DNA of 64,000 bases from Pseudomonas sp. WJP1. Lineage in GTDB: Bacteria; Pseudomonadota; Gammaproteobacteria; Pseudomonadales; Pseudomonadaceae. How positions within the stretch are numbered: position 1 is the stretch's first letter; each line of letters starts with the position of its first letter. Shown one piece after another: positions 56,918 through 62,772 of this stretch. The stretch lies in NCBI RefSeq assembly GCF_028471945.1, contig NZ_CP110128.1, positions 1,352,501 to 1,416,500 of the forward strand. The letters are read 5' to 3'. The translations under genes and the position numbers were made by a program. The notes beneath the pieces are model-generated. The model ran no database searches and was not told where the DNA came from. It saw only the letters and a program-made list of their open reading frames with translations.

Positions 56918-57000
56918 ATCGCGAGCAGGCTCGCTCCCACAGGGATCGCATTTCATTCATAAGGAACGCGGTCAACTGTGGGAGCGAGCCTGCTCGCGAT
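56918..57000. repeat. REP doublet (REPIN)
   Basis: Inverted copies at 56918-56940 and 56978-57000 lie just after the end of the tubulin-like gene. The rest of the 298-bp gap 56,729-57,026 shows only a short dyad near 56,733 (GGTCGCACC/GGTGCGAT) and no gene. Confidence 0.9.
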
Positions 57001-57026: not shown

Positions 57027-59222
57027 TTAGAAAGTCTTGCCCGTATGGTTATTCAGCGAAATAACCTTAGTCTTGCCAATCCGGTGACGATAGATCTCAC
57101 GCAGGTACTTGATCGCTTTTTTCACGCAGTCGCGGGACAGGCGGATGTCATTGATTGAGACAAACTTGTCCTTGTCGTTGATCAGCTCGCGATACTTCTT
57201 CTCGTACATCGGTTTGATCGCATACCAATTGGTATCGAGAATTTTCGCCGGGTTCTCGAACTCGTTGAGCAGGTCGTCGATCAGGTTTTCATCGAATTCT
57301 TCGTTGATGATGAAGTCCAGGACCGAGTTGTCCAGGGTGTCATCGAAGCGGTAAGGGGTACGCGCAAAGCAACGCTTGATGAACGCCACGATCAAGGTCA
57401 GGAAATCGTCCGACAGGCACGGGCTCTTGGCGATCAGGGTGGTCAGCGACAGGTTGGCCGAGGCACCGATCACCAGTGCATAGCGCTTGAGCGTGGTGTT
57501 GGGGAACAGGTTGTTGAGGTGCGTCTTCAACCGGTTCAGGTCCATGTAGGACAGCTTGTAGTCCTTGGGCAGGGAAACGATCGACACTACCGACGAACAG
57601 TTCTTGAAGAAGTGCAGGTCGTGCAGGGCCGCCGCGTCATATCCCGAATTCTTGTACTGCTCCAGCGACGCCCGATAGCGCTTGGACTCGATCGGCAACA
57701 GGCTGATGCCTTCGATGGCTTGGGTGACTTTATTGAAGTGCGGCAGGTCGATGGAGCGGAAGAACAGGTCGTCGATGTTCAGGCGTTGTGGCTCTTTCTC
57801 GAACACCTTGAATTTGTCGCCGGTAGGCGCCGGGGTTTCCGGAACCACGGACTCGGCGTAGGCAATCGCTACCGGGCCGGCCAGGCTCATGAACAGGTCG
57901 TTGGCGTCCAGGCGAATGGTTTCGCCAATGTCGATGCCGGCACGGCGGAAATAGTTCTGGTCGTAGTCTGTCGTGACCGCCTGCGCGGTCAGGATGTTGA
58001 AGATCTGCTGCGAGATGTACTGGTTGGCATGCTTTTCCATCGCGTTGACGTCGATGTTCTGGATGTTGCCGTCATCGCTTTCTTCGGCATAGCGCATGAT
58101 GTCGTTGGAAATCAGCATCATCGCGTTCCAAGGGCGGATACGGCCCATGACACTGGCTTCGCTGCTGTCTTCGTTGGCGAAGTTGTAGGAAAAGTCCCAC
58201 TCCTCCGACAGGTATTTGCACAGCAGGCGACCGGCGTTGATGTGAAGCGCTTCGGACATTTCACTGCGGTGATCGGAAATGTTCGGCAATACGCAGATGC
58301 CGCTGGTGAAGATCGGCTCGAAGACGAAGGCGTGGCCACTCTTGCTGTCATGCTCGTCCATCGGCTTGGTGTCGAACGTCTTGTTCATGTACGAGTGTTG
58401 CTGGGCCAGGCCGAACTCCGAGGCCATGCCTGAACCGGTGCCGCCGCCGGCACTGAAGATCGAGAAGTACAGGCGCGACTGGTTGGCCTTGATGCCGCAG
58501 CTGTCGATCAGGTACGAGTGGATCATCTTCCAGTCCGGGCTGGAGAAGCGCTGGGTGTCCTTGTTCAGGATGATCTTGGCCAGGTACTGGCCGAGGATCG
58601 GCGCGTTACCGGCACCCCCGGCATGGACTTCCGACAGGTCCATGATTTTCATTTTGCTGTAGTCACGCAGGAACCCGCTTTTTTCGCCTTTGCGCGAGAA
58701 GCGGATACGCCCGGCAATGTCCTTGTCCAGGTCGCCCAGCATCACCAGCGGTTCTACCAGGAACACCGGTTTGGTGGCCTTGTTCGCCCCCAGGCGCAAA
58801 TTGTTACGAATCCACTGTGCCGGGCTGTAGCCCTTTTCCGAATAGCGTTTGTCTGGCGAGAGGCGGTCTTCGTTGTTGAACTCGTTGAGGTAGAACTTGC
58901 GGGCGTTGTAGACCAGTTCCGCGACATCCAGCGCGATGTTCGAACCGCAACGGCCCAGGCCAATCAGGCACACTGACGGGAACTGCTGGTCGTTGTGCTG
59001 TTCGTTGTCGCCTTCCAGATGCGGTGGGCGGGGGAACACCATGTCGCGCAGGCCGTCGAGGTTGTCGAGGATGCGATCGGTGTTGGTTTCGGTGAAGTAC
59101 AGGTATTGCTGGGTCGCCAGTGGGCGCGACGGCGTCAATGGCTTCGAGGGTACGGGGCTGTTAGCCGCCGGGCTCAGCGTCAGGTCGGAAAGCGCAGGGG
59201 CCGGGTTGTTTTTGGAAGTCAT
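57027..59222 (-). CDS. Divergent tubulin/FtsZ-superfamily GTPase-like protein
   Basis: The 731-residue protein (from ATG 59222; a GTG/ATG at 59276/59273 would add up to 18 residues) has a Pro/Ser-rich N-terminus, then a readable tubulin/FtsZ core: T1-like IGLGRCGSN (88-95), T3-like HAGGAGNAPILGQ (200-212), T4 AGGGTGSG (258-265), T6-like MLISND (369-374), an H7-like helix with HANQYI and a T7-like RLDANDLFMSLAG with Asp439 and Asp442 in the places of FtsZ catalytic Asp209/Asp212. The FtsZ C-terminal peptide is absent; instead there is a C-terminal region of about 250 residues. It may be a FtsZ-like/Tubulin_2-type filament protein. No partner gene is adjacent. Confidence 0.72.
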   Translation of the reverse strand: MTSKNNPAPALSDLTLSPAANSPVPSKPLTPSRPLATQQYLYFTETNTDRILDNLDGLRDMVFPRPPHLEGDNEQHNDQQFPSVCLIGLGRCGSNIALDVAELVYNARKFYLNEFNNEDRLSPDKRYSEKGYSPAQWIRNNLRLGANKATKPVFLVEPLVMLGDLDKDIAGRIRFSRKGEKSGFLRDYSKMKIMDLSEVHAGGAGNAPILGQYLAKIILNKDTQRFSSPDWKMIHSYLIDSCGIKANQSRLYFSIFSAGGGTGSGMASEFGLAQQHSYMNKTFDTKPMDEHDSKSGHAFVFEPIFTSGICVLPNISDHRSEMSEALHINAGRLLCKYLSEEWDFSYNFANEDSSEASVMGRIRPWNAMMLISNDIMRYAEESDDGNIQNIDVNAMEKHANQYISQQIFNILTAQAVTTDYDQNYFRRAGIDIGETIRLDANDLFMSLAGPVAIAYAESVVPETPAPTGDKFKVFEKEPQRLNIDDLFFRSIDLPHFNKVTQAIEGISLLPIESKRYRASLEQYKNSGYDAAALHDLHFFKNCSSVVSIVSLPKDYKLSYMDLNRLKTHLNNLFPNTTLKRYALVIGASANLSLTTLIAKSPCLSDDFLTLIVAFIKRCFARTPYRFDDTLDNSVLDFIINEEFDENLIDDLLNEFENPAKILDTNWYAIKPMYEKKYRELINDKDKFVSINDIRLSRDCVKKAIKYLREIYRHRIGKTKVISLNNHTGKTF

Positions 59223-59415
59223 TGTTCGCCATGTACCTGGGCTGGTTGGTCGCGGACTACTGTCGTCGACCATCACGGAATGAGAGCTCGCGTCTTTTAT
59301 CAGCGCGTATTAGTCCCGGGCGGCGCAGTCAGCTTGCGCGTCGCTCGGCGGAATCCTTTCCTGCATCTTGATGAATCGGCCAATATTCGGTGTTCTTTAA
59401 TCAAAAGGAGGCAAA

Positions 59416-60309
59416 ATGATGTCAACGCTACCGGCCCTGGGTTTTGCCGGAATCGGCCTGATGGGCCTGCCAATGTGCCGGCGTTTGCTCGCCGCGGGTT
59501 ACCCACTGACTGTGTGGAACCGCAATCCGGCCAAGTGCGCGCCGCTGGTCGAGGCCGGTGCACGCCAGGTCGCCACGCCTGCCGAGTTGTGCCAACACGC
59601 CGAAGTAGTCATGTTGTGCCTGGCGGATACGGCGGTGGTTCGCGAGGTGGTTTTCGGCAAGTCGGGCATTGCCGAGGGGGCGAAAAAGGATCAATTGCTG
59701 GTGGATTTTTCCAGCCTGGAACCCACGGCGACCCGGGAGATGGCGGCAGAACTCGGCAAAACCGGCATGGGTTGGCTGGATGCACCGGTGTCTGGCGGGG
59801 TGGTGGGCGCTGAAGCCGGCAGCCTGGCGATCATGGTCGGCGGCACCGTGGCGGACCTTGAGCGAGTCAAACCGGTTTTGTTGAGTCTTGGCCAGCGCGT
59901 GACGCACATGGGCGCCGTGGGCGCAGGGCAGGTGACCAAGGTCTGCAACCAGATGATCGTTGCCTGCAACGCGCTGGTCATCGCCGAAGTGGTGGCCTTG
60001 GCGGAGCGCTCCGGGGTCGACGCCAGTCTGATCGCCGAGGCACTGACCGGTGGGTTTGCCGATTCAAGGCCCTTGCAGTTCCTGGCTCCGCAAATGGCCG
60101 AGAGCCGTTTCGAACCGGTCAAATGGCACGTGCGGACTTTGCTGAAGGATCTGGACGGTGCGGTGAAGTTTTCCCGCGAACAAGGTTCGGCGACGCCGAT
60201 CAGCGGCTTGGCTGCGCAATTGATGCGCCTGCACGGTGGGCAAGGTTTCCTGGAGAAAGACCCGTCTACATTAGTGCAGATGTACCGTGAACCCGACCCA
60301 GGTGCGTGA
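59416..60309 (+). CDS. 3-hydroxyisobutyrate dehydrogenase family oxidoreductase
   Basis: The 297-residue enzyme has the NAD(P) motif LGFAGIGLMGLPMCRRLLAAG, the substrate motif LDAPVSGGVVGAEAGSLAIMVGG and the catalytic Lys in GAGQVTKVCNQMIVA. It belongs with tartronate semialdehyde reductase and 3-hydroxyisobutyrate dehydrogenase; the substrate is open. AAGGAGG precedes two adjacent ATGs (59416, 59419), and the second has better spacing. Its 3' end overlaps the convergent MHYT gene by 44 bases. Confidence 0.88.
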   Translation: MMSTLPALGFAGIGLMGLPMCRRLLAAGYPLTVWNRNPAKCAPLVEAGARQVATPAELCQHAEVVMLCLADTAVVREVVFGKSGIAEGAKKDQLLVDFSSLEPTATREMAAELGKTGMGWLDAPVSGGVVGAEAGSLAIMVGGTVADLERVKPVLLSLGQRVTHMGAVGAGQVTKVCNQMIVACNALVIAEVVALAERSGVDASLIAEALTGGFADSRPLQFLAPQMAESRFEPVKWHVRTLLKDLDGAVKFSREQGSATPISGLAAQLMRLHGGQGFLEKDPSTLVQMYREPDPGA

Positions 60310-62482
60310 CGGTGCATGACTGCTTGCGCTGGTTGATTTCGTTCAGCACCGGCTGCAGTTCGGTCAGCGGGACCGGCCTGCTGAGCAGGTAACCCTGGAC
60401 GAAGTCGCAGCCGTGGCCTTCGAGAAACCGGTACTGCTCGAAGGTTTCGACACCTTCGGTAACCACATCCAGATGGAGGGTGTGGGCCATGACGATGATG
60501 GCCTGGACGATCTCCATGTCCTGGGTGGATTTCGGAATATCCTGGATGAATGAGCGGTCGATCTTCAGCGTGTTCAGCGGCAAGCGCTTAAGGTAAGCCA
60601 GGGATGAATAACCGGTGCCGAAGTCATCGATCGACAGCGAAACGCCGAGGGCGCGTATCTGCTGCAGCAACACCAGCGTATCGGCTATGTTGCCCATCAG
60701 CGCACTCTCGGTGACCTCCAGTTCCAGTCGATGGGGCTCCACCCCGGCACTGCGCAACGCGAGTGAGATTTCGTCGCTCAGTTCTTCGCGCGCCAGGGTC
60801 AGGGGGGAGCAATTGATGGCAATCTTCAGGTGCCCGCAACCCTGGCGCGCCAACTCGCCCAGATCCACGCAGGCCTTGCGCAGCACCCAGTTGTCCAGTT
60901 CGGTAATCAGGCCATTGGCCTCTGCTACGCCAATGAAACGGTCCGGCGCGAGGAAGCCGTGGACGGGGTGTTGCCAGCGGATCAAGGCTTCGAGCTTGCT
61001 GACCTGGTTGGTCTTGAGGTCAAGGATCGGTTGGTAATAGAGCATCAGGCCGGTGTCTTCGCGCAGGGCATGGCGCAGTTCTTCCTCCATTTGCAGTTCC
61101 AGCATGGCGCGAGCCTTGAGGTTGGCACTGAAGAAGTTCAGACCGTTACGGCCGCTGTCCTTGGATTGATACAGCGCCAGGTCGGCGTTTTTCAGCAGTT
61201 CTTCACAAGTCTTGCCGTCCTCGGGAAACACGCTGATACCGATGCTGGTGGTCATGACCATGCGTCGCCCGGACAGCTCGATGGGTTCCTTCATTTTCAG
61301 CATGATGCGCTGGGCCATCTGCCGCGCCTCTTCACGGTCATGCAGGTCGATGAGAATGCAGAATTCGTCGCCACCAAAGCGTGCCACCACATCGTCATGA
61401 CTGCGTACCGAGCTTTTGATGTGCCGGGCGAGGACCTTGAGCAGTTCATCGCCGGCGTCGTGGCCGAGGCTGTCGTTGATTCGCTTGAAATGGTCGATGT
61501 CGAGGAACAGGACGGCGAGCATGCCGCCTGAATGAGTACGCTCCAAAAGCTTCTCGGCGAAGAGCTGGTTGAACCCGCGACGGTTGACCAGGTTGGTCAG
61601 GGCGTCGTAGTGCGCCACCTGTTGCAGGGACATGCGCGCCTGGTCCAGTTGGCTGAGTAGCGAGTTGACCCGCAGCAGGTCACGGTCCTTGTGCTGCAGT
61701 TTCTTGTCCGCCAGCGCTGCGCTGATGCAACTGCCGATGATCAGCAGTGTCATGACGGCTACCGTCAGGCCCAGTTGCAGATGGTTGTTTTCGGAAGGTT
61801 GAGTCACCTGGCTGCCGGTTGGCAGGACCAGGTCGAAGGCGGCCATGCCGGTGAAGTGCAGGCTCATGATGCCTGCGCCCAGCACCAGGCTGGCGGCGTA
61901 TTTGCGCAGTTGGTGAAAAATACCCGCGCTATTGCGCAGGTAGCTCGCCAGCAGCAGTAACGCCAGGCTGGCGCCGGTGGCGATCACAATGGAAAGGACG
62001 AGCAGCGCCGGATGGTAGTAGGCCGTCGCTTGCGAACGCATGGCGGCCATGCCCACGTAGTGCATGGTGGCGATGCCCAGGCCAATAATGAACGATGCCT
62101 TGCAGCATTGGCGGACATTCAAGACAGGCAAGCTGAGGGTGTGCATCGCCAGCCACGACGCACATAGGGCGATCAACAGCGACAGGAGCGTGATGGGCAA
62201 ATGGTAGTGGACGTCGATCGGCGCCTGGAACGCCAGCATGCCGATGAAGTGCATGGCCCAGATTCCACCGGCCAGGCACCCGGCACCGATCCAGCGCCAA
62301 AGGCGTTGGGAAGCCGGTTTTTGCGCATGGCTGATTCGTTCGGCCATATCCAGTGCGGCAAAACAGCTGGCGCAGGCGACCAGAAAAGCCAGCAGCACCA
62401 GAAAAGGGTCATGTGCGCAATGGAGTATGACCTGTCCGCTTTCTGCTAGCTCTGTAGTGAAATGCAGACCAAGCCACTCCAT
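60266..62482 (-). CDS. mucR: MHYT-GGDEF-EAL cyclic-di-GMP enzyme (MucR type)
   Basis: The 738-residue membrane protein begins with an MHYT sensor of seven helices (MHFIGM, MHYVGM and LHFTGM motifs, which may bind copper or sense O2/NO), followed by GGDEF (FGGDEF intact, residues about 300-455) and EAL (KLEALIRW, DDFGTGYSSL and ESA, about 475-725) domains. Both catalytic motifs look intact, so it may make and degrade c-di-GMP. P. aeruginosa MucR has the same layout and influences alginate; the name is by domain order. ATG 62482 is chosen over an upstream frame. Confidence 0.85.
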   Translation of the reverse strand: MEWLGLHFTTELAESGQVILHCAHDPFLVLLAFLVACASCFAALDMAERISHAQKPASQRLWRWIGAGCLAGGIWAMHFIGMLAFQAPIDVHYHLPITLLSLLIALCASWLAMHTLSLPVLNVRQCCKASFIIGLGIATMHYVGMAAMRSQATAYYHPALLVLSIVIATGASLALLLLASYLRNSAGIFHQLRKYAASLVLGAGIMSLHFTGMAAFDLVLPTGSQVTQPSENNHLQLGLTVAVMTLLIIGSCISAALADKKLQHKDRDLLRVNSLLSQLDQARMSLQQVAHYDALTNLVNRRGFNQLFAEKLLERTHSGGMLAVLFLDIDHFKRINDSLGHDAGDELLKVLARHIKSSVRSHDDVVARFGGDEFCILIDLHDREEARQMAQRIMLKMKEPIELSGRRMVMTTSIGISVFPEDGKTCEELLKNADLALYQSKDSGRNGLNFFSANLKARAMLELQMEEELRHALREDTGLMLYYQPILDLKTNQVSKLEALIRWQHPVHGFLAPDRFIGVAEANGLITELDNWVLRKACVDLGELARQGCGHLKIAINCSPLTLAREELSDEISLALRSAGVEPHRLELEVTESALMGNIADTLVLLQQIRALGVSLSIDDFGTGYSSLAYLKRLPLNTLKIDRSFIQDIPKSTQDMEIVQAIIVMAHTLHLDVVTEGVETFEQYRFLEGHGCDFVQGYLLSRPVPLTELQPVLNEINQRKQSCTVTHLGRVHGTSALM

Positions 62483-62772
62483 AGCATGCCCCGTGGTTGT
62501 CTCCCTTGCCGGCAATCAACGCTGGCGAATGTGTTGGAGTATAGAGGCCGTGGATTGAACGCAAGGGATAGTGGCACATTGTCTCCCAATGATTTTGGAA
62601 TGGACCTTAGTTCGTTTGGAAATAAAATGTCGCATGGGCCGCGTCTGTCCCCATGGTTGGGTATCAGCTTTACGAATAATTACAGACAGTCCTGGCCCGC
62701 CTGACTAGATTGCAGGTTCCGGGCTCGGATGCACTGGCAGTGAAGCCCCATAACAATAAAAGAGACGGACCC

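Follow-up and report, generated by a model that had tools for sequence, protein, structure and literature searches.

Outside cell division, the tubulin superfamily includes the plasmid and phage tubulins TubZ and PhuZ. Two further families, FtsZl1 and FtsZl2, were described, and kept separate, in the 2010 study of Makarova and Koonin (PMC2875224). FtsZl2, whose type is PFL_1302 of Pseudomonas fluorescens Pf-5, was reported to possess T1, T4, T6, T7 and H7 and a C-terminal region of ~300 aa that resembles no other family, and to lack associated genes, the type protein matching PF00091 in HHpred with E = 0.0033. FtsZl1 was characterised by a coiled coil, by operons with vWA proteins and by a T6-H7 that is not clear. 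Filaments were predicted for these families and a direct role in division was judged unlikely. The family, its T-loops, its unique C-terminus and its lack of associated genes were therefore already published in 2010. No later study of FtsZl2 was found in the open-licence literature searched, the name FtsZl does not occur in the available portions of PMC9871819 and PMC3349469, and the string 'FtsZL272E' in PMC7327170 is unrelated to FtsZl2.

The protein described here is encoded in a stretch of 64,000 nucleotides of Pseudomonas sp. WJP1 (the window) and almost certainly belongs to FtsZl2, as judged from its sequence features. It shares with the published description the genus of the type, the GGGTG(S/T)G signature of T4 (here GGGTGSG) accompanied by T1, T6 and T7, of which the last two are recognised by pattern only, a C-terminal region of ~300 aa without similarity to other families, the presence beside FtsZ and the lack of associated genes, no conserved neighbours being found among what are mostly unannotated ORF clusters; all named carriers found here are Proteobacteria. 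No difference was seen in this comparison, which was made with that description. We infer orthology to PFL_1302 from the single match found in every same-genus genome that carries the gene. The FtsZl1/Tubulin_2 (PF13809) proteins are similar in being distant FtsZ/tubulin relatives with long C-termini, and in their profile similarity at T4, but the window protein falls below the PF13809 cut-off and no vWA operon was seen in the window, where the nearest genes (DUF2288, hydroxyisobutyrate-dehydrogenase-like and MHYT-GGDEF-EAL) encode no vWA protein, protein kinase, GTPase or OmpA. The label "FtsZl/Tubulin_2 families" used in the original prediction joined two things, the window protein scoring below the PF13809 cut-off and FtsZl1 and FtsZl2 being separate families in PMC2875224. 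FtsZ itself shares the T1, T3 and T4 motifs in order and the two Asp of the putative T7, but the window protein is longer, contains insertions and lacks both the C-terminal peptide and any FtsZ-type C-domain that could be found. TubZ and PhuZ, compared by description rather than by sequence, are likewise tubulin-superfamily proteins outside division, but the FtsZl2 gene is chromosomal and matched none of 72,556 plasmid and 50,697 phage records.

The gene is real, and its position and size (Table 1) are those originally predicted. A GTG at 59276 in the same frame, giving 749 aa, is a possible start, but the ATG at 59222 is favoured because the aligned relatives begin near it. The closest named relatives are from Pseudomonas, with 98% identity, and the comparison with six Pseudomonas loci of 80.7-97.5% identity yielded dN/dS ratios of 0.026, 0.041, 0.067, 0.080, 0.131 and 0.115; the gene is under strong purifying selection. 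FtsZ is encoded elsewhere in the genome, in agreement with the proposal of a chromosomal superfamily protein apart from it, and has 397 aa, so that the window protein is indeed larger, by a factor of ~1.8 (731 vs 397 aa). The Pro/Ser-rich N-terminus anticipated from the sequence is there, with 8 P and 6 S in 35 residues; this tail has no invariant column out of 38 in 17 diverse members and is missing from the four alignment rows of f196, a one-genus family, and is therefore not essential to the FtsZl2 family. Hydropathy over 19 residues peaks at 1.4, and therefore no obvious membrane segment is present.

Table 1. Features of the FtsZl2 locus, with positions in the window; counts of 341 refer to distinct relatives
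Feature	Position	Strand	Residues and remarks
FtsZl2-type tubulin-superfamily protein gene	57027..59222	-	731 aa; ATG 59222 to stop 57027
T1 loop GLGRCGSN	58938..58961	-	residues 88-95; G[LF]GxCGSN in 341/341
T3 loop HAGGAGNAPILGQ	58587..58625	-	residues 200-212; exact in 320/341
T4 tubulin signature GGGTGSG	58428..58448	-	residues 259-265; 340/341; aligned to FtsZ T4 by profile comparison
Putative T6 ISND	58101..58112	-	residues 371-374; 340/341; pattern and position only
Putative T7 LDANDLF	57891..57911	-	residues 438-444; two candidate catalytic Asp (439, 442); 341/341
Most conserved block of the unique C-terminal half	57363..57617	-	residues 536-620; 53/85 columns invariant in 17 members
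MHYT-GGDEF-EAL protein gene	60266-62515	-	near FtsZl2 in most Pseudomonas loci read

Conservation of the loops was followed in 341 distinct relatives, mostly from Pseudomonas, that were obtained from 219 database proteins (among the matches listed) and 125 proteins from loci after merging duplicates; the last 22 f196 sequences to be added were recognised by NAPILGQ, which biases the count toward T3. The five loop signatures claimed in the original prediction are all present in order and near-invariant. Only T1, T3 and T4 stand out in scans with FtsZ matrices, which did not pick the expected site of T6 or of T7; these two are assigned from their position, their residue pattern and their invariance. 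T4 was kept in all relatives but one (P0033), and T7, together with the two FtsZ-type Asp expected in it, in every one, the single miss at T6 being P0002. The distance from T4 to T7 is 179 residues in the window protein and 103 in the FtsZ of the same genome, an excess of ~75 that agrees with the insertion of about 70 residues first proposed. A divergent FtsZl2 from Pseudomonas caspiana (P0107) has His in place of Arg in T1 (GLGHCGSN) and forms a long branch beside the window sequence.

The similarity to the superfamily is distant and lies around T1-T4. Matches of the window protein to PF00091 (E = 0.0036, below the curated cut-off) and to PF13809 (E = 0.0042, 16.8 bits against a cut-off of 27) both fall around T4, and both families match weakly in all 17 diverse members; no protein of the window's own genome exceeds the PF13809 cut-off. 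Profile comparisons with FtsZ and Tubulin_2 gave scores of 31.9 with 30 FtsZ sequences and 32.1 with three Tubulin_2 sequences, above all of 28 control families built from flanking ORFs, some of which may be shadow ORFs (at most 23.3 and 26.3, respectively), and by the same method the accepted pair FtsZ/Tubulin_2 scored 33.3; the alignments span 17-46 columns only, around T3-T4. The N-terminal part alone scored 28.0; the highest of 100 column shuffles reached 26.4. T1, T3 and T4 in order reached 19.6 with matrices from the 30 FtsZ sequences, a value equalled by none of 3000 shuffles and by 2 of 1411 other ORFs, none of which contains GGGTG[ST]G. The score of the window protein was attained by 11 of 572 decoys when five FtsZ matrices were used and by 34 of 572 when seven were used. 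PDB sequence searches returned chance matches only, and no bridging family was seen among the best 120 matches of an alignment-based protein search (672 at E <= 10, compared with 667 at 1e-3 in the single-sequence search; ~8000 candidates were scored). The relationship of the window protein to the division protein FtsZ is real, and the protein is strongly conserved.

The C-terminal half was foreseen as unique, and accordingly nothing in Pfam, NCBIfam or the PDB sequences matched residues 445-731 significantly; rows below threshold, MIF4G (E = 0.089) for instance, were weak and taken as chance. An FtsZ-type C-domain, suggested by eye for the conserved block, was rejected: in the block scan 1045 of the 2000 shuffles and 416 of the 572 decoys equalled or exceeded the score, and the profile score was 11.7, against a mean of 12.8 and a maximum of 23.5 in column shuffles (n = 100) and a maximum of 17.0 in the 28 controls. 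A pattern that we take to represent the FtsZ C-terminal peptide was found in none of the 341 relatives, in line with the absence of this peptide from the earlier reading of the protein.

FtsZl2 was detected in 26 of 35 other genomes of the same genus, with one match each; about three quarters of the sampled congeners thus carry a second, strongly conserved tubulin-superfamily protein. The remaining 9 lack it, and therefore the genus can live without the gene. Beyond the genus it was found in 1 of 21 same-order genomes (the overall tally of 28/57 counts the window's own genome), in 13 of 244 genomes of an order-wide draw, and in 2/274 and 2/369 of two class-wide draws, both times the window's own genome and G092, a genome of another order. 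Within f196, which is perhaps Marinomonas, a genus listed in PMC2875224, 29 of 48 genomes have it. A relative is encoded in 487 stretches of GTDB species genomes, and the 80 of these that were listed are all from Pseudomonas; other named carriers among the best 120 matches of each protein search include Rheinheimera, Arsukibacterium, Cellvibrio, Alkalimonas, Catenovulum and Ectopseudomonas. In a 37-row tree Cellvibrio was grouped with Rheinheimera, Arsukibacterium and Alkalimonas (100/99) and G092 fell inside the Pseudomonas group (95/91), positions which, with some branches being long, suggest transfer of FtsZl2 between orders. The G092 gene (locus L103) has a long branch and lies on a 9.4-kb contig of a draft genome, being the product of either transfer or contamination.

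We favour, with moderate confidence, the reading of FtsZl2 as a GTP-dependent filament whose role is separate from division, and we infer for it GTP binding, T7 catalysis, polymerisation and a non-division role. GTP would very likely be held in the pocket made by T1, T3 and T4; by analogy with FtsZ, the active site of an adjoining subunit would be completed by the Asp pair of the putative T7, and the subunits, stacked head to tail, would hydrolyse GTP in polymer form. The family's own function may reside in the unique C-terminal half, which would either regulate the filament or bind a partner, a cargo or a membrane one, encoded elsewhere. FtsZl2 would act alongside FtsZ but not in essential division, and as a one-gene unit. 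If the filament reading is true, Pseudomonas would have a further chromosomal tubulin-type filament; FtsZl2 is a single gene, dispensable to the genus, in genetically tractable bacteria. It is tempting to speculate further, as a tentative and rather doubtful generalisation, that FtsZl2 could be a self-contained one-gene tubulin-type cytoskeleton of Gammaproteobacteria, moving between orders as a single gene and coexisting with FtsZ, whose GTP-driven filaments would have their output in their own C-terminal domain and not in an operon partner.

FtsZl2 could instead bind GTP without forming filaments, as a nucleotide-dependent switch or scaffold acting through its C-terminal half. The conserved block of that half (53/85) is nearly as rich in invariant columns as the GTPase stretches of the 17 diverse members (60/80 at residues 196-275, covering T3-T4, and 68/100 at residues 361-460, covering T6-T7), the T7 assignment has no statistical support in the FtsZ matrix scan, and the large insertions could hinder stacking; on the other hand, an LDANDLF shared by all 341 relatives is as expected of a catalytic T7, and we regard this alternative as unlikely, if worth keeping in mind, beside the filament reading.

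It appears quite improbable that FtsZl2 is a mobile defence gene or some other accessory gene. Its patchy presence (26/35 within the genus, 29/48 in f196, 2/369 in the class including the window's own genome), its gain or loss as a single gene and the tree positions suggesting transfer would all fit a gene of this kind, but it has no PADLOC match and none to plasmids or phages, it is subjected to strong purifying selection, it keeps a stable place in f196 and in most Pseudomonas loci read, and 16 other alignment rows are 57-87% identical to the window protein. Such identity is unlike what is usual for fast-evolving defence genes.

As to its surroundings, FtsZl2 lies in the window between two opposite-strand genes, DUF2288 after it and a hydroxyisobutyrate-dehydrogenase-like gene before it. 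Branched-chain amino-acid transport genes, identified by eye, also follow it, and the MHYT-GGDEF-EAL gene, on the same strand as FtsZl2, precedes it beyond the dehydrogenase-like gene. Pseudomonas neighbours, compared as ORF clusters, were not common to the other lineages read, though some were common within Pseudomonas; with no neighbour gene conserved across these lineages, the lack of a recognised partner stated in the original prediction is borne out. Two of the commonest clusters around the gene (c4 and c28) were discarded as shadow ORFs inside FtsZl2. GGDEF-EAL is the sole neighbour type that recurs across lineages, but as a partner of FtsZl2 it was rejected. In f196 its orthologue is about equally common with and without FtsZl2, occurring in 25 of 29 genomes that have FtsZl2 and in 15 of 19 that do not (54-80% identity in those 15). 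Eight FtsZl2-lacking f196 loci were compared: two show Ppx, Amt-GGDEF-EAL and antiporter-like genes that we take to be mnh in order, with FtsZl2 missing, five keep Amt-GGDEF-EAL beside mnh with a contig end or another gene upstream, and in one it lies elsewhere. Therefore, the neighbour belongs to the place and not to FtsZl2, which in f196 comes or goes as a single-gene unit. That the two proteins act jointly in cyclic-di-GMP signalling is consequently very improbable. In its favour, 87 of 103 loci have a same-strand GGDEF-EAL gene within 1.5 kb of FtsZl2 and one more has it at 2.2 kb, these loci being mostly from close Pseudomonas and so not independent; the two genes are directly adjacent in 20 of 29 f196 genomes (GGDEF-EAL downstream in 16, upstream in 4) and separated by a single gene in G092, and the sensor parts of the neighbouring proteins are of three kinds (MHYT, ammonium transporter-PAS, PAS-GAF). 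Against it, besides the f196 counts and the two loci that keep GGDEF-EAL in place without FtsZl2, an opposite-strand gene separates the pair in the window, 15 of the 103 loci have no such neighbour, and genes of this type are numerous, this query giving 25-92 first-look candidates per f196 genome.

At L126 and other f196 loci the GGDEF-EAL protein is an ammonium-transporter-PAS-GGDEF-EAL fusion of ~1020 aa, encoded near Ppx/GppA and the antiporter-like genes. Finally, an inverted repeat lies 3' of the FtsZl2 gene at 56918-57000; the window contains 19 copies of its 21-base motif at <= 3 mismatches (mean expectation 0.01), with the other sites at 1601 to 50989 and nearly all of them arranged as inverted pairs, which we presume to be REPIN-like.
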